In this document: positions 4,878-15,698 of the stretch, piece after piece
Numbering within the stretch: the first letter of the stretch is position 1
Layout: each line of letters opens with the position of its first letter
DNA from: a virus
Direction: 5' to 3' (one strand)
Virus record (IMG/VR): IMGVR_UViG_3300046794_000064
Coordinates: 1 to 20,306 of that record
Length of the DNA: 20,306 nucleotides
The notes under the pieces: generated by a model
What the model was told of the DNA's origin: nothing
Databases searched by the model: none
What the model saw: the letters and a program-made list of their open reading frames with translations, nothing else
Made by a program: the position numbers and the translations under genes

Positions 4878-6856
4878 TGCAGACACTCGTCTTTGATATC
4901 GAGAGTGACGGCCTGATCCCCGAGATGACCAAGGTCCACTCCCTGGTCATCAAGGACATCGAGAGCGGCGAAGTCTGGTCATGCTGGCCGTTCGACGCCG
5001 AGACAGCGCATCCCTACCACACCATCGTGTTTGGACTGAAGATGCTCATGGACGCCGAGTGCATAGCAGGCCACAACATCCAAGGCTTCGACATCCCGGC
5101 GATCCAGAAGATCTACCCGTGGTTCAAGCCTAAGGGGCGCATCCTCGACACGGTCATCATGTCCCGCATGATGTACCCCGACATGCGTGACGCCGACTTC
5201 CGGCAAGCAGAGAAAGGCGACTGGATACCGGGGCAGCACTTCGGCAAGCACAGCCTTGAAAGCTGGGGCTACCGCCTCGGTCTCTGGAAGGGCGACTACG
5301 GTGCCATGCGCAAGGCTGAGGGCAAGGCTCTCGGGCTGACCGGCGCAGAGCTTACGTTCTTCGTCTGGGGCACATGGTCGAAGGAGATGCAGGACTACTG
5401 CGAGCAAGACGTTGAGGTAACCGTTGCACTCCTGCACAAGTTGCAGAAGAAGAACTTCTCCGACGAGAGCATCCAGTTGGAACACGACGTCCAGCGGATC
5501 ATCTCCCGGCAGGAGGCCCATGGTTGGGCGTTCGACGAGAAGGCTGCGGCAGACCTCTACGGCAAGCTCCGTGGCAGTCAGACCGAGATCGAGCAGAAGC
5601 TGGCCGAAGTGTTCGCGCCATGGTTCCGCTTCGATGGCGTCATGACCCCCTCGGGCAACCGTACGGTCAAGCGTGGCGACCTCGACATCACGGTCACCAA
5701 GCGGCGCTTCGGTAAGAACGGCAAGGAACTCGCCCCATACGTAGGTCCCATTCAGGAACACTACGAGGAAGGCGCAACCTACACCAAGGTCAAGCTCAAG
5801 CCCTTCAACCCATCATCCAGGCCCGACATCGCGAACCGCCTGAAGACACTCTACGGCTGGAAGCCAAAGCTCTTCACGCCGAAGGGTGACCCGAAGGTGG
5901 ACGATGAGGTCCTCAGGGAACTGAAGTACCCAGCGGCTCCGCTCCTCACCGAGTATCTGGAAATCGACAAGCTCACCGGCATGCTGGCCGAGGGCAAGGA
6001 GGCGTGGCTCAAGGCTGTCAGGAACGGTCGTGTCCATGGCCGCGTGTCCACTATGGGCACCGTCACCTCCCGCATGACGCACAGCAAACCCAACATGGCT
6101 CAAGTGCCCTCGCACAAGGTCAAGTGGGGCCATGAGTGCCGCGCCCTGTTCACCGCGAACAAGGGTCAGGTTCTCGTGGGCTGTGACGCCGATGCGCTCG
6201 AACTCCGATGCCTCGCTGGCTACATGGCCAACTGGGACAAGGGTGCGTACATCAAGACCATCCTTGAGGGGAAGAAGGAAGACGGAACGGACATGCACAC
6301 GCTGAACGCTAAGGCGCTCGGCTGTGACCGCGACACCGCCAAGACGTGGATCTACGCCATGCTCTACGGGTCCGGTGACTTGAACCTCGGGTCCGTCCTG
6401 GGTGTCAAGGGTTCCGACGCGCAGGTAGCGGGGGCGGGCAAGGCTGCTCGCAACAAGCTGATGAAGGCGTTCCCCGCTCTCAAGCACTTGGTCGAGACCT
6501 GCAAGGAACGCTCCAAGTCCGGCAAGCTCAAGGGCCTCGACGGTCGCTACGTTCCGATCCGCTCGGCGCACTCCGCACTCAACACGCTGCTCCAGTCCGC
6601 TGGTGCCATCATCATGAAAAAGGCCCTCGTCATCCTTGACGCGAACCTTCAGGAACTCGGGCTAACCCCCGGTTTCCATTACGAGTTCGTGGGCAACATC
6701 CACGACGAATGGCAGATCTCCTGCAATCCCGACATAGCGCAACTCGTTGGTCAGACCGCCACTCAGGCGATCCTGCTGGCCGGTGAGGCTCTGAACTTCA
6801 AATGCCCACTCAAAGGAAATTTCGACGTTGGAAGTAACTGGGCTGAAACCCACTAA
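4877..6856 (+). CDS. 5: DNA polymerase, family A with 3'-5' exonuclease (T7 gp5-like)
   Basis: 659 aa; T7 gp5 is 704. Exonuclease domain: FDIESDG (D7, E9), HNIQGFD (D72) and YCEQDV (D178), all three Exo motifs intact, so proofreading is expected. Polymerase domain: motif A GCDADALELR (D437), motif B RDTAKTWIYAMLYG (R485, K489, Y493) and motif C IHDEW (H609, D610, E611), plus LNTLLQSAGA as in T7. Between about residues 259 and 310 lies a basic, Lys/Arg-rich insertion ending PFNPSSRPD. It corresponds to the T7 thioredoxin-binding region but is shorter (~50 against 76 residues), so use of host thioredoxin is possible but unproven. The 3' end overlaps the next gene by 29 bases. Confidence 0.97.
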   Translation: MQTLVFDIESDGLIPEMTKVHSLVIKDIESGEVWSCWPFDAETAHPYHTIVFGLKMLMDAECIAGHNIQGFDIPAIQKIYPWFKPKGRILDTVIMSRMMYPDMRDADFRQAEKGDWIPGQHFGKHSLESWGYRLGLWKGDYGAMRKAEGKALGLTGAELTFFVWGTWSKEMQDYCEQDVEVTVALLHKLQKKNFSDESIQLEHDVQRIISRQEAHGWAFDEKAAADLYGKLRGSQTEIEQKLAEVFAPWFRFDGVMTPSGNRTVKRGDLDITVTKRRFGKNGKELAPYVGPIQEHYEEGATYTKVKLKPFNPSSRPDIANRLKTLYGWKPKLFTPKGDPKVDDEVLRELKYPAAPLLTEYLEIDKLTGMLAEGKEAWLKAVRNGRVHGRVSTMGTVTSRMTHSKPNMAQVPSHKVKWGHECRALFTANKGQVLVGCDADALELRCLAGYMANWDKGAYIKTILEGKKEDGTDMHTLNAKALGCDRDTAKTWIYAMLYGSGDLNLGSVLGVKGSDAQVAGAGKAARNKLMKAFPALKHLVETCKERSKSGKLKGLDGRYVPIRSAHSALNTLLQSAGAIIMKKALVILDANLQELGLTPGFHYEFVGNIHDEWQISCNPDIAQLVGQTATQAILLAGEALNFKCPLKGNFDVGSNWAETH

Positions 6857-7478
6857 GACCTGTACCCGCTGCCTATGCACCAAGCCTGTATCTGAATATC
6901 CCATCCACAAGCACGGCAAGCGAGCAGGGGAGGTATACCCCTACTGCACTGAATGTAACCGAACAGCTTCGCGGCTGGCCATGAGGCGTCTGGCGGCGCT
7001 GCGACGTGGTGAGATCGTCGGGACCCGCTCCGACATCATCATCTGCGATGCCATCGAGACACCCGAACCACCCCAGGCTACCCATGCCGACATCGAGGCC
7101 ATCATCGCCGGACTAAGGTCGATGGCGGTTGAACTCCGGTACAACGAACCCACCACCCAGAAGCCGAAGAAGAAGAAGCATCGCGTCAAGGACGAAGTCG
7201 TCTACGTGGTGGTCCACCCATGCTGGCCGGAATACGTGAAGATCGGCCACACCTCCAACATCGACGCACGTCTCATATCCTACAACACTGGCGATCCACT
7301 AAGGAGATACACCTATGCCCACACCCAAGATGTCTATGATCGTATCCTGGCTGAGCGCGGTATACATGAGTTGCTGGCTTCGTATCGCCGGACGGGGACT
7401 GAGTGGTTCCGTATCCACGTCGAAGACGCCATTAGTGTCATTAGATCACTCCACTCTGGCACCTATGTCGAAGTCTGA
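6828..7478 (+). CDS. GIY-YIG / T5orf172-type nuclease with N-terminal zinc motif, putative homing endonuclease
   Basis: 216 aa. N-terminus: Cys pairs CTRC (12, 15) and CTEC (40, 43) form a likely zinc finger of the kind found in phage HNH/GIY nucleases. Residues ~85-120 are a linker with a basic run. The C-terminal domain starts VVYVVVHPCWPEYVKIGHT (Y126, K138-T142), then R148 and GTEWFRI, the pattern of T5orf172/GIY-YIG domains. Such proteins are typical free-standing homing nucleases that spread next to replication genes. The start is TTG 6828 with AAAGGAAA at 6813-6820, so it begins inside the last codons of DNA polymerase. T7 has nothing like it here. Nuclease activity and mobility are inferred from the family. 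Confidence 0.8.
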   Translation: MEVTGLKPTKTCTRCLCTKPVSEYPIHKHGKRAGEVYPYCTECNRTASRLAMRRLAALRRGEIVGTRSDIIICDAIETPEPPQATHADIEAIIAGLRSMAVELRYNEPTTQKPKKKKHRVKDEVVYVVVHPCWPEYVKIGHTSNIDARLISYNTGDPLRRYTYAHTQDVYDRILAERGIHELLASYRRTGTEWFRIHVEDAISVIRSLHSGTYVEV

Positions 7479-8739: not shown

Positions 8740-8931
8740 ATGGACGAAGAGTGTCCCTATGTACCCAGAGATCTGGTTGCGTTCCTTAAACAGGCGTTCC
8801 CCAGCCGATTACCCAGTAACCTATTAACCCTATCAGACAGGGCCATTGGTGCCCTACACGGTGAACAGACAATCGTCGGTTTCCTAGAGGCGCATCTCGC
8901 TGCCCAGGAAGAAAGACATGTGTCCACCTAA
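8740..8931 (+). CDS. Small hypothetical protein, 63 aa, first gene of the head block
   Basis: ATG 8740 has GAAGG six bases upstream. The product starts MDEECPYVPRDLVAFLKQAF and goes on as a helical protein (LSDRAIGALHGEQTIVGFLEAHL). A hydrophobic helix around residues 10-20 and an acidic N-terminus are visible, with no membrane span and no zinc motif. Codon use is less C/G-biased (tta, tta, cta around 8810-8830) than in flanking genes, a possible sign of another origin. It overlaps the following virion-protein gene by 14 bases. In T7 genes 6.3-7 lie here; I recognise no clear homology. Function unknown. Confidence 0.7.
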   Translation: MDEECPYVPRDLVAFLKQAFPSRLPSNLLTLSDRAIGALHGEQTIVGFLEAHLAAQEERHVST

Positions 8932-9148
8932 GGCACCAAAGATCCAGAAGGCCGATCCGGTTCAGGCCGCACCACCACCTGTCGATAGCCCTACGGCCCC
9001 CGTCCTCAACGAGGTTGGCACCACCGGTACCGACGCGGACCTCGCCAATGCCTCTGCAAAGCGCAAGGGCAAGAAGTCACTGGTAACCCCACTCTCGATG
9101 CCCACCACCATGGGACGCCCTCAGATTGGCGTTAACGTACCAGTCTAA
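8918..9148 (+). CDS. gp6.7/gp7.3-like small virion protein, 76 aa
   Basis: Begins MCPPKAPKIQKADPVQ and ends RKGKKSLVTPLSMPTTMG followed by RPQIGVNVPV. T7 gp6.7 starts with a similar MC...PKIKTPK stretch, and T7 gp7.3 ends with GGKKSLSVARSSGGGINI; this protein shows both signatures, in the right place just before the portal gene. Family knowledge: gp6.7 and gp7.3 are small, disordered proteins of the mature virion, released on infection; gp7.3 is needed for tail assembly. The middle is Pro/Ala/Thr-rich and likely disordered. The Shine-Dalgarno is GGAAGAAAGA. The stop overlaps the portal ATG (TAATG). Confidence 0.75.
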   Translation: MCPPKAPKIQKADPVQAAPPPVDSPTAPVLNEVGTTGTDADLANASAKRKGKKSLVTPLSMPTTMGRPQIGVNVPV

Positions 9149-12624: not shown

Positions 12625-12947
12625 CAACTGTCTATAAATGGATCGCAACATGCATCGCGCTCCTCGCCATTGTCGGGATCATCTACGGCAAAGGGCGTCT
12701 CGATAGCCAACACGCAGCCGAACTAGCCGACGTACAGGCCCAACTTACCGCCGTCCAGACGCAAGTGCTGACCGAAAAAGAAGCACGTATTTCGGACGCC
12801 AAGCTGGCCAAGGCTGACGCCGACCGACTCTCCAAACTCAACTCCGACATTGATGGACTGAACGCCTATGTTGACGCGCTTCAAGACGCTGATCGTGAGT
12901 GCCTTAGTGGCGCTGACACTGAACGGCTGCGCCAGCTTTGGCAGTAA
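12621..12947 (+). CDS. Rz: Inner-membrane spanin subunit (Rz-like)
   Basis: 108 aa from ATG 12621 (ATGA overlap with the holin). One N-terminal membrane span (about residues 6-24, KWIATCIALLAIVGIIYGK) is followed by a long periplasmic coiled coil (HAAELADVQAQLTAVQTQVL and KEARISDAKLAKADADRLSK). The end, ECLSGADTERLRQLW, is typical of Rz proteins. Family knowledge: i-spanin dimers pair with the o-spanin lipoprotein across the periplasm and fuse inner and outer membranes in the last step of lysis of Gram-negative hosts. The o-spanin gene begins inside this one in another frame, the usual Rz/Rz1 arrangement. Confidence 0.9.
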   Translation: MTTVYKWIATCIALLAIVGIIYGKGRLDSQHAAELADVQAQLTAVQTQVLTEKEARISDAKLAKADADRLSKLNSDIDGLNAYVDALQDADRECLSGADTERLRQLWQ

Positions 12948-13152
12948 GCAGCTACATCCTCACTACCCTGAATTACCTGCTGATCTACGCATCTGCTTCG
13001 ACGCGGAAGTGCCGAGACCGGCGCAAGGCCCGCTCAACAAGAAGCAGGTGATCGACCTGATCGCCAAGCTGAAAGTTTCCGAAACCACGAAGACTGCATG
13101 CGGCCACCGGCTGGTCCAGTTTTACGACAACCTGGGTGATCCTCATGACTAA
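12868..13152 (+). CDS. Rz1: Outer-membrane spanin lipoprotein (Rz1-like)
   Basis: 94 aa, starting inside Rz and overlapping its last 80 bases in another frame. Signal peptide MLTRFKTLIVSALVALTLNG with lipobox LNG-C; C21 is the lipid-bearing Cys. A Pro-rich segment follows (HPHYPELPADL, EVPRPAQGP), as in many o-spanins. It is longer than classical Rz1: residues ~55-90 (NKKQVIDLIAKLKVSE and ACGHRLVQFYDNLGD) form an extra C-terminal region with two more Cys (C43 and the ACG Cys) that could form a disulfide. Partner of the i-spanin in fusing the two membranes. The stop overlaps the start of the following large gene. Confidence 0.88.
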   Translation: MLTRFKTLIVSALVALTLNGCASFGSKQLHPHYPELPADLRICFDAEVPRPAQGPLNKKQVIDLIAKLKVSETTKTACGHRLVQFYDNLGDPHD

Positions 13153-14638
13153 GTTATCGGCCTTCGCCAGGGCCTTCGCCGCCGCCAGAGCTAAGGGCCT
13201 CAAGGCCTTCCCATGGAACGGAAAGTCCTACAGCACGAAGACCAAAGGGGAGGGCTCCACATCCAAACCGAAGGCCAAGTCGAGTTCAACTGGGGTTGCC
13301 GCTACAAAGGCCCCCTCTACATCTGCCGACACGAAATCTGCCGCTCCTGCCAAGAAGTCAGCGGGTTTCAGCCAGTCGCCCCGAATTTACGGGAACACGT
13401 ACGACAGCTACCAATCAGGCAAGCCAGAAGTTCACGTCCACGTCCATGCCCCAGCGGCTGTACAGGCCGATGCGCCGAAGACGGCCAAAGCTGCATCGTC
13501 TGTAGCGAAGCCCAAGCCTAAGCCTAAAGCCGACCCGAGATCCCACGCGGACACCCCGGCTCAGAAGAAGGCAGTCGCGGCTGAGGCCAAGAAGCCGACC
13601 CCAATGAACACCGCCGCGCAGGATGCAATTGACCGCGCAGGCGCATCACAGAAGGCTGAGCCAAAGGACACGACCCCGTCGTCGTTCAAGTCTCCGCCCC
13701 GTGGCGAGGCGCACGTTGATCGGCGCGAAGATTACCCACGGCCAGCCATCAAGGTCCTAGGCTTCGTCAAAGAGAAGTCGAAGATCGGACAGGCCAAGGC
13801 CAGATCCATCAACGAACCGTACGAGACGCCGAAGTACCCGACCCCAGGCACCAGCCCTCGGTCAGCTAAGGTCACCCAGGCACCCGCGCTGGACACTGGC
13901 CGAACCAAGGACGACATCGTCCGCGTTGACAGTGGTGTCGCTCGTCAGGGATCGCGCCTCGACAAGGCTATCCAGGCCAAGAACCTCGACGCCGCCAACT
14001 CGGCATCCAATGCTGCCCAGCGTGGCCACACACCACAGCCGGTGCAGACCGCATCATCCGATGGTCCGAAGAAGCAGGATGATGTGGCACCTAAGAAGGA
14101 AGCTCCGAAGGAAGTGGCCAAGGCTGATGACAAGCCGACCGCCCCGAAGACCCTCGACGGTGTTCTGAAGCGTCTTGACGACTACGTCTCCTCGAAGACC
14201 GGAGAGCCTAAGGCCCGCGAGAGCGATATCCCGAAGGACCGGAAGCAGAAGGACGACGTGATCGAGAAGCCCGCACCCAAGGAACCTGATGCCCCCACGG
14301 GTGACCGAGGCTCCGACCATATGTCCGAACTCGCAGACGCCAACGCCGACAAGCCCGATCCTGTAGGAGAGGCGCATGCCCGCATTGACGAACTGACGAA
14401 GCGCCTGGACGACATGGCGAAGGAGCGTGACGCAGCCGTTAACGCACCAACCCTGGCGAAGACCTCACGTCTACCAGCGGAACCTAAGGATACCACGGCT
14501 ACGGCCTCGGTGTCTCAGGCGTCTCCAAAGACCTCGCGTCTTCCTGCGAAGGATGATGCCACGGCGTCCAAGACGTCAAGACTACCCGCAATGGAACGCC
14601 TCGCACTGTCGAAGACGTCCCGTCTGGCGAAGAAGTAA
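13145..14638 (+). CDS. Large Lys/Pro/Ala-rich disordered protein with C-terminal KTSRLPA repeats
   Basis: About 497 aa from ATG 13145 (a GTG at 13136 would add three residues). Family not recognised. N-terminus: a basic amphipathic helix (AFARAFAAARAKGLKAF) and PWNGKSYSTKTKGE, a small motif I associate with phage virion proteins. Residues ~30-380 are low-complexity, Lys/Ser/Pro/Ala-rich and presumably disordered, with HVHVHAPA near residue 98. Coiled-coil pieces follow (TLDGVLKRLDDYVSS; HARIDELTKRLDDMAKERDA). The last 60 residues carry four KTSRLPA motifs. It overlaps the o-spanin stop and ends before a terminator just upstream of the capsid gene. It may be a virion or head-associated protein, an assembly factor, or part of the lysis programme; position between lysis and capsid allows all three. 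Coding is supported by the strong third-base C/G bias. Confidence 0.85.
   Translation: MTKLSAFARAFAAARAKGLKAFPWNGKSYSTKTKGEGSTSKPKAKSSSTGVAATKAPSTSADTKSAAPAKKSAGFSQSPRIYGNTYDSYQSGKPEVHVHVHAPAAVQADAPKTAKAASSVAKPKPKPKADPRSHADTPAQKKAVAAEAKKPTPMNTAAQDAIDRAGASQKAEPKDTTPSSFKSPPRGEAHVDRREDYPRPAIKVLGFVKEKSKIGQAKARSINEPYETPKYPTPGTSPRSAKVTQAPALDTGRTKDDIVRVDSGVARQGSRLDKAIQAKNLDAANSASNAAQRGHTPQPVQTASSDGPKKQDDVAPKKEAPKEVAKADDKPTAPKTLDGVLKRLDDYVSSKTGEPKARESDIPKDRKQKDDVIEKPAPKEPDAPTGDRGSDHMSELADANADKPDPVGEAHARIDELTKRLDDMAKERDAAVNAPTLAKTSRLPAEPKDTTATASVSQASPKTSRLPAKDDATASKTSRLPAMERLALSKTSRLAKK
14459..14629 (+). repeat. Four KTSRLP(A) peptide repeats at the C-terminus of the large protein
   Basis: KTSRLP is encoded at 14459-14476, 14528-14545 and 14570-14587, and KTSRLA at 14612-14629. 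The starts are 69, 42 and 42 bases apart, so the last three lie at an exact 14-residue period. The DNA copies differ by synonymous changes (Arg as cgt, cgt, aga, cgt; Ser as tca, tcg, tca, tcc), so the repeat is kept at the protein level, not as a recent DNA duplication. Confidence 0.9.
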
Positions 14639-14648
14639 ATATGGTTCC

Positions 14649-14684
14649 GGTCCCTGCCTTCAGGTAAACCGGGACCCTCTTCTT
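14649..14684 (+). terminator. Probable terminator before the capsid gene
   Basis: GGTCCC (14649-14654) pairs with GGGACC (14671-14676), and CTCTTCTT follows. The 16-base loop can form a small inner CC/GG stem. The T-tract is broken by C, so it may be a weak terminator that lets part of the transcripts through to the capsid. It directly follows the stop of the repeat-protein gene. Confidence 0.55.
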
Positions 14685-14690
14685 ATGAAT

Positions 14691-14756
14691 TGTTGAAGCA
14701 AGTCACACTGACCTTTTTAGGCGGTGACAATCGCGCACCGCGCAAATCCTTCAACA
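14691..14756 (+). promoter_or_regulatory. Branched RNA structure in the capsid mRNA leader
   Basis: TGTTGAAG (14691-14698) and CTTCAACA (14749-14756) form a perfect 8-bp outer stem. Inside lie GTCAC (14702-14706)/GTGAC (14724-14728) and GCGC-ACC-GCGC (14733-14743), so the RNA can fold into a three-way junction. The capsid Shine-Dalgarno AGGAA (14761-14765) stays just outside it. The region may hold the capsid promoter, an RNase III site or a stabilising 5' leader for the most highly made protein. Only the base pairing is seen. Confidence 0.5.
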
Positions 14757-14774
14757 GCATAGGAATACTACTAC

Positions 14775-15698
14775 ATGGCTAACGCTATTGTCTCCCCGTT
14801 GGGTCAGGCTAACGGCGCAGGTGCATCTGATGCCCTGTTCCTCAAGGTCGCTACCGGAGAAATCATCACCTCGTTCGCGAAGACTTCGCAGTTCGTAGAT
14901 CGCCATCAGGTCCGCACGATTGCCAACGGCAAGTCTGCATCCTTCTACGCAACGGGCCGTAGCTCGAACGCGGCATACCATACTCCGGGTCTCGAAGTCC
15001 TCGGCGGCACGATCCCGGTCAACGAAGTCGTCATCACCATCGACGACCTCCTGCTCACCTCGACGTTCATCGCGAACATCGAAGAGGCCAAGCTGCACGT
15101 TGACGTTCGTGGCGAGTTCACGAAGCAGATGGGCGAAGAGCTTGCACAGGCCTTCGACCGCAACGTCGCCATCAACGGCGTCCTCGCTGCACGTCAGTCC
15201 GCTCGTGTCACGGGTGGCCAGGGCGGTGGCAAGCTGATCAACGCTGCTTACCTCACTGATGCGACTGTGTTCGCTGATGCCCACTTCGATGCGGCTGCAT
15301 TGCTCGATGACAAGTTCGTTCCGTCCACGGAGCGCTACTCGTACATGAAGCCGTCGCAGTACTACGCCCTCGTCAAGTCCACCAAGGTCATCAACAAGGA
15401 CTGGGGTGGTGAAGGTTCGTACGCAAACGGTAACGTCCACATGATCGCAGAGATCGTTCCGGTCAAGACGGCCAACCTGCCGAATACCAACATCCTGACC
15501 GGCAAGTACCTCGGTGACTTCTCGAAGACCGCTGGTCTGATCACCCACCGCTCGGCGGTTGGTACGGTCAAGCTGATGGATCTGAAGGCCGAGAGCGAAT
15601 ACCAGATCGCCCGCCAGGGCACTCTGTTCGTCGCCAAGTACGCCATGGGTCACGGCCCTGTGCGTGCCGAAGCTGCGGTCGAACTCGCAATCGCCTAA
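14775..15698 (+). CDS. 10: Major capsid protein (T7 gp10A-like)
   Basis: 307 aa; T7 gp10A is 345. It has the T7-type HK97-fold order: FLKVATGEIITSFAKTSQF (N-arm region), HQVRTIANGKSASFYATGR, DLLLTSTFIANIEEAKLH (spine helix region), RGEFTKQMGEELAQAFDRN, the P-domain with YALVKSTKVINKDWGGEG, and LITHRSAVGTVKLMDLKAES near the end. It forms the icosahedral shell around the scaffold. The start has Shine-Dalgarno AGGAA. The gene has its own leader and is enclosed by terminators on both sides, as expected for the most abundant protein. Readthrough of the TAA would add only seven codons (SNPAGAP) before another stop, and the terminator begins 10 bases after the gene, so no long gp10B-like extension is seen. 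Confidence 0.96.
   Translation: MANAIVSPLGQANGAGASDALFLKVATGEIITSFAKTSQFVDRHQVRTIANGKSASFYATGRSSNAAYHTPGLEVLGGTIPVNEVVITIDDLLLTSTFIANIEEAKLHVDVRGEFTKQMGEELAQAFDRNVAINGVLAARQSARVTGGQGGGKLINAAYLTDATVFADAHFDAAALLDDKFVPSTERYSYMKPSQYYALVKSTKVINKDWGGEGSYANGNVHMIAEIVPVKTANLPNTNILTGKYLGDFSKTAGLITHRSAVGTVKLMDLKAESEYQIARQGTLFVAKYAMGHGPVRAEAAVELAIA

Follow-up and report, generated by a model that had tools for sequence, protein, structure and literature searches.

The gene and its flanks

What does a long disordered protein encoded between the lysis genes and the major capsid protein gene contribute to a phage, and which part of it is conserved? We addressed this question in a 20,306-nucleotide stretch of viral DNA (the window; IMG/VR record IMGVR_UViG_3300046794_000064). 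Its gene for a 497-aa protein lies at 13145–14638 on the + strand, as do the parts of that gene and the two flanking genes described below, with an ATG at 13145 and a stop codon that ends at 14638. The start is inside the end of the o-spanin-like lipoprotein gene directly upstream (12868–13152), whose stop codon is at 13150–13152, giving an overlap of 8 bases. The upstream gene was called from its lipobox-like LNGCAS and by comparison with the Pasto o-spanin, and it has no family match in Pfam or PHROGs; M15 endolysin, holin-like and i-spanin-like genes also lie upstream, and the holin-like and o-spanin-like calls rest on sequence and position only. Downstream is the gene for a T7 gp10-like major capsid protein (14775–15698), identified by family matches. 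The placement between lysis genes and capsid given by an earlier, sequence-only reading of this DNA is therefore correct. That reading had also stated that T7 has no counterpart at this position; T7 is indeed not known to have a gene between scaffold and capsid, but a lysis cassette at this site is ordinary in the group of relatives (Lo5R7ANS, Pasto).

The same reading described the product as an unrecognised, basic and disordered protein of about 500 aa, and this is borne out as follows: 66% of its residues are disorder-promoting, its net charge is +30 (with an acidic stretch at aa 281–430) and it falls below the Uversky boundary. The full-length AlphaFold model has a mean pLDDT of 54, with values below 50 at 298 of 497 residues, and is confident only at residues 1–33 and in a single coiled-coil-like helix at aa 406–433 (14360–14443; pLDDT ~96), weaker helices being predicted elsewhere. 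Thus, of the "coiled-coil pieces" reported earlier just this one is confident. The basic N-terminal stretch is folded, as a helix plus hairpin, and PWNGKSYSTKTKGE, listed earlier as one feature among several, is half of a conserved domain (below). The protein gave nothing better than E 0.49 against Pfam and PHROGs, including no spanin or lysis, tail fibre or nucleic-acid-binding family, so the known-family match (tail fibre or spanin-linked) that would have spoken against the multivalent-motif idea did not appear in these libraries; orthologues and the full-length protein, searched against Pfam, PHROGs and NCBIfam, likewise returned nothing usable. By inspection no signal peptide, lipobox or transmembrane helix is visible in it. 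Elsewhere in the window, a 216-aa ORF (6828–7478) has a CxxC...CxxC start and a YVKIGHTSNIDARL stretch that by eye resembles GIY-YIG/T5orf172 nucleases, and it is possibly a homing-type endonuclease.

Homologous blocks and the KTSRLPA repeats

With the whole protein as query, tblastn against 50,697 phage records gave a single relative, in Rhizobium phage RHEph21, and a full-length protein scan of IMG/VR, which has low sensitivity for a disordered query, found none. Among close relatives in IMG/VR (capsid 87–92% identical), all seven that have at least 3.3 kb of upstream sequence carry an orthologue with the N-terminal module (below) before the capsid gene, and the 35 remoter capsid relatives (43–53%) gave no credible orthologue and one spurious match (E 0.036). 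In the rhizobial Autographiviridae RHEph01, RHEph21 and vTRX32-1 the orthologue is between portal and scaffold. The related phages Lo5R7ANS, LUZ100, BB8 and Pasto do not have the gene, and it is therefore accessory rather than an essential head part. The hypothetical proteins RHEph01 gp034, RHEph21 QXV74657 and vTRX32-1 QQM14024 (Paadamvirus, Autographiviridae) resemble the window protein in the module, in a DYPRPA...IGQA block, in disorder and in their location in the late region of T7-like rhizobial phages; they differ from it in length (~160–170 aa versus 497), in their portal-scaffold placement and in having a C-terminal ARKGSAIS and no KTSRLPA.

Homologous blocks were defined by alignment with shuffled controls, expressed as z scores. 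The first block, aa 1–36, gives z values of 9–21 across the orthologues (11–14 for the RHEph21 group). The second, aa 181–260 (13685–13924; DYPRPA...IGQA and GTSPRSAK), is common to RHEph21 (z 13.1), vTRX32-1 (z 7.0), and the relatives L012 and L010, and a third, aa 255–330 (13907–14134; TKDD and GVARQGSRLDKA motifs), is common to L019 (z 6.4). No z above 4 against the orthologues was obtained for the segments aa 37–180 and 331–436. The order of module followed by second block is conserved between the window and the QXV74657 group; the C-terminal WYA[RK]KGSAIS motif of that group is missing from the window, which has the looser GVARQGSRLDKA at aa 266–277. L010 has two tandem orthologues (5321–6025 and 6025–6771; 234 + 248 aa) that together are about as long as the window ORF. 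The latter may possibly be a fusion or expansion of such tandem paralogues: its aa 181–260 match copy 1 with z 5.5, and its tail matches copy 2 with z 3.2, which is not significant.

The C-terminal repeats were located by repeat count and codon comparison. The sequence-only reading had counted four KTSRLPA motifs; the KTSRL core does occur four times, but only three copies are full KTSRLPA (aa 439, 14459–14479; aa 462, 14528–14548; aa 476, 14570–14590), the fourth being a degenerate KTSRLAK (aa 490, 14612–14632). Repeats of this kind are rarely produced by chance: when the composition was kept and the order shuffled 20,000 times, a 5-mer reached four copies in 4 shuffles and a 7-mer reached three copies in none. 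A DNA-level search found no repeat at the KTSRLPA sites, and pairwise nucleotide differences among the four cores amount to 20 synonymous and 0 non-synonymous, CGT/AGA arginine codons among them. Because these differences are all synonymous, the copies are not fresh DNA duplications, and the peptide was kept while the DNA drifted.

Is the repeat, then, the working part of the protein, offering multivalent binding to capsid or scaffold as was proposed from the sequence? The exclusively synonymous divergence of the copies speaks for such a function, but the motif is in none of the other loci compared, including every homologue, and the sole match of an IMG/VR-wide search for two copies at comparable spacing is not KTSRLPA in the frame of the match. 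Recurrence next to capsid genes of other podophages, which the earlier reading had put forward as a check, was thus not found among the homologues or, at comparable spacing, in IMG/VR. The tail (aa 437–497) also has no significant similarity to any orthologue (z ≤3.2 with shuffled controls). We rejected KTSRLPA as a hallmark of the family, and give little credence to its being the working part. What survives of the multivalent-motif idea is a disordered carrier with recurring short motifs, since the family has other recurrent motifs of this kind (GIARxGSxIxxAA, which canonical members have twice; [RK]xKDD[VI]; GT[SA]PR[MS]A); a multivalent tail is thus possible in the family generally, with motif letters that turn over. 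Judged by these comparisons, the KTSRLPA repeat is private to this phage, whereas the first ~33 residues, a mini-domain of ~30, are its conserved hallmark and of greater interest.

The interval between the gene and the capsid gene (14639–14774) has features of its own. It has a predicted RNA fold of −49.8 kcal/mol (z −4.9 versus shuffles) and no match in Rfam; the closest relative, L010, keeps a related sequence whose closing stem (GUUGAAG/CUUCAAC) seems, by eye, to have undergone compensatory changes, and a tRNA-Asn occupies this place in the relatives RHEph01 and LUZ100. In some relatives large genes lie between the orthologue and the capsid gene (L014 5311–6507, whose protein has by eye a GDS motif as in SGNH-type hydrolases; L016 960–2612; L121 3463–5115), and the interval looks like a cargo hotspot.

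The N-terminal module and its spread

The module (aa 4–36, 13154–13252) has the consensus FxxAFxxARxxGxxxFxWNGKxYxTxxxxE and is predicted by AlphaFold to be a helix (residues 3–17) followed by a beta-hairpin (strands 21–24 and 27–30), with a mean pLDDT of 85; the full-length model agrees. The window protein matches the module HMM with E 1e-12, the window itself being one of the 45 rows of that HMM. The two halves travel together: the hairpin is kept in 26 of 26 matches to a helix pattern and the helix in 16 of 17 matches to a hairpin pattern, counts to which confirmation by tblastn adds some bias. Since the pattern of each half recovers the other half, the conservation is not only an artefact of the search. 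No credible match to the module was found by sequence in Pfam, PHROGs or the PDB, and it is not represented in these family and structure libraries. Foldseek found nothing credible among solved structures (best E 1.2); its BFVD matches were phage proteins without characterisation, at probability 1.00 but with a best E of 0.014. A search of paper full text for module strings gave no match.

In IMG/VR, 337 module loci were confirmed by one pattern search, and 80 were retained. The module is at the N-terminus, at the C-terminus or in the middle of mostly disordered proteins, and is present twice in one protein in a single case (L171). Its carriers include podophages, crAss-like and other tailed phages and two microviruses; searches with the module alone matched Pedosvirus S28C3, Roseobacter phages CRP-13 and CRP-345, crAss-like cr107_1, csAssE-Sib, P. 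putida PpuM phages, Pelagibacter phage HTVC115P and two microviruses. In a single search the poorest of these matches had an E close to 1 or higher, but most score well with the module HMM. In the two microviruses it forms the C-terminus of M15 endolysins, and among the M15 matches listed most microvirus relatives end before it. We considered microviruses as the main source of the module and rejected them, with two microvirus records only and most M15 relatives lacking it. In a crAss-like tail lysozyme the module comes just before the lysozyme part. Other crAss-like proteins are similar in this respect: the module lies inside large proteins (L091 3933–6317; L093 3507–5927), one of them annotated as a tail lysozyme, with structural genes nearby. 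When 84,980 bacterial and archaeal genomes were scanned, only two module loci were confirmed. Both are on MAG contigs, and one of these coincides with an IMG/VR viral contig in its length and in the position of the match. As far as these sequence searches reach, the module is found almost only in viruses.

The net charge of the protein and a mostly basic module suggest a nucleic-acid condensing protein, whose basic tail and module would bind packaged or intracellular DNA or RNA. However, aa 281–430 are acidic, no nucleic-acid-binding family is matched, and the net charge of the module over 72 sequences ranges from −4 to +9; the last of these disfavours simple nucleic-acid binding, and we regard a condensing protein as quite improbable.

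Head-gene neighbourhoods and a proposed role

The above comparisons identify a widespread mini-domain, but do the genes that carry it have a common surrounding? Of 24 non-redundant loci examined individually, 16 have a portal, TerL, capsid or scaffold gene among the nearest larger ORFs, a raw count in which chance proximity is included, and the other 8 gave no clear head gene. L112 and L123 both have the order TerL-module-portal, L113 has portal-module-scaffold, and in Roseobacter phage CRP-345 the module (a weak match, 61% over 23 residues) is flanked by the portal and coat protein genes. Among the PHROG families matched by 106 neighbouring proteins, the leading ones were, apart from families of unknown function, head-tail adaptor/portal, TerL, major head, head assembly and maturation protease families, and no lysis family was among the 25 commonest. 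The module also occurs inside large proteins of probable structural role. The earlier suggestion of a link to head genes therefore holds beyond this locus: homologues and other module carriers adjoin portal, scaffold, capsid or terminase genes. Because the adjoining portals and capsids are non-homologous, this link has probably arisen several times.

A lysis-linked role had been suggested as well. If the module bound peptidoglycan or the envelope, the gene could be the last member of the lysis cassette, which would agree with its overlap with the o-spanin stop, with the module on the two microvirus endolysins and the crAss-like tail lysozyme, and with a 69-aa carrier that weakly matches an endolysin family. 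Yet the RHEph gene is between portal and scaffold, away from the endolysin gene, most carriers adjoin head genes, most of the microvirus M15 matches listed stop before the module, and there is no visible signal peptide or transmembrane stretch. As the RHEph phages and most carriers have the gene outside the lysis cassette, we do not favour this role and think it unlikely. A helper of assembly only, which would bind portal or scaffold in prohead formation and be missing from mature virions, fits a gene that adjoins portal and scaffold in several lineages, but the gene is dispensable in close families, and it is difficult to see how one conserved head partner could serve a module that occurs in ssDNA microviruses as well as near portals and capsids that are not homologous; we hold such a helper to be rather improbable.

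We favour, with a probability of roughly 0.45, a late accessory protein of the head-gene cluster that is probably virion-associated and in which the mini-domain would serve the variable disordered tail as an anchor or targeting tag. Its architecture would be a phage-specific helix-hairpin mini-domain joined to a long, fast-evolving, mostly basic disordered tail with a few short motifs and one helix. The mini-domain would bind a partner that it encounters while the head is assembled, be it portal, scaffold, packaged DNA or a host component; this binding would bring the tail into or onto the virion, where it might act as a multivalent binder or be ejected along with the genome. One conserved head partner is disfavoured because the module adjoins unrelated head proteins and sits on microvirus endolysins; a host component, the cell wall or nucleic acid are possible alternatives, and the endolysin and tail lysozyme carriers would fit a cell-wall partner also. 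In a wider form of the idea, which we consider doubtful, the helix-hairpin would be a portable address tag of unrelated dsDNA and ssDNA phages, added independently to disordered proteins, endolysins and large virion proteins and leading to the same destination, the virion or one conserved host structure.

Known systems offer two analogies. The T7 genes for gp6.7 and gp7.3 are near the portal gene. Both products are small accessory virion proteins, gp6.7 being a core protein and gp7.3 helping tail assembly (PMC11784390). They are the closest functional analogy, although the window protein has no sequence match to them and another protein of the window, of 76 aa (8918–9148), is a separate candidate for this type, weakly matching phrog_1320 (host range and adsorption protein, E 0.0022). 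The capsid targeting sequence of T4 internal proteins, by which diverse proteins are directed to the head with a short tag, is a conceptual analogue, likened here by description. It is N-terminal and is cleaved by the prohead protease; the module, unlike it, is also found mid-protein and C-terminally, and T7-like phages are not known to have a prohead protease of the T4 kind.

vTRX32-1 is an inducible, plaque-forming temperate phage and RHEph01 a lytic phage isolated earlier (PMC8631192). The presence of the gene in both means that its presence in virions and the need for it can be tested directly in laboratory rhizobia. More generally, unnamed disordered genes occur in many phage head clusters, and one mini-domain that marks hundreds of them is a handle by which they may be grouped and tested.
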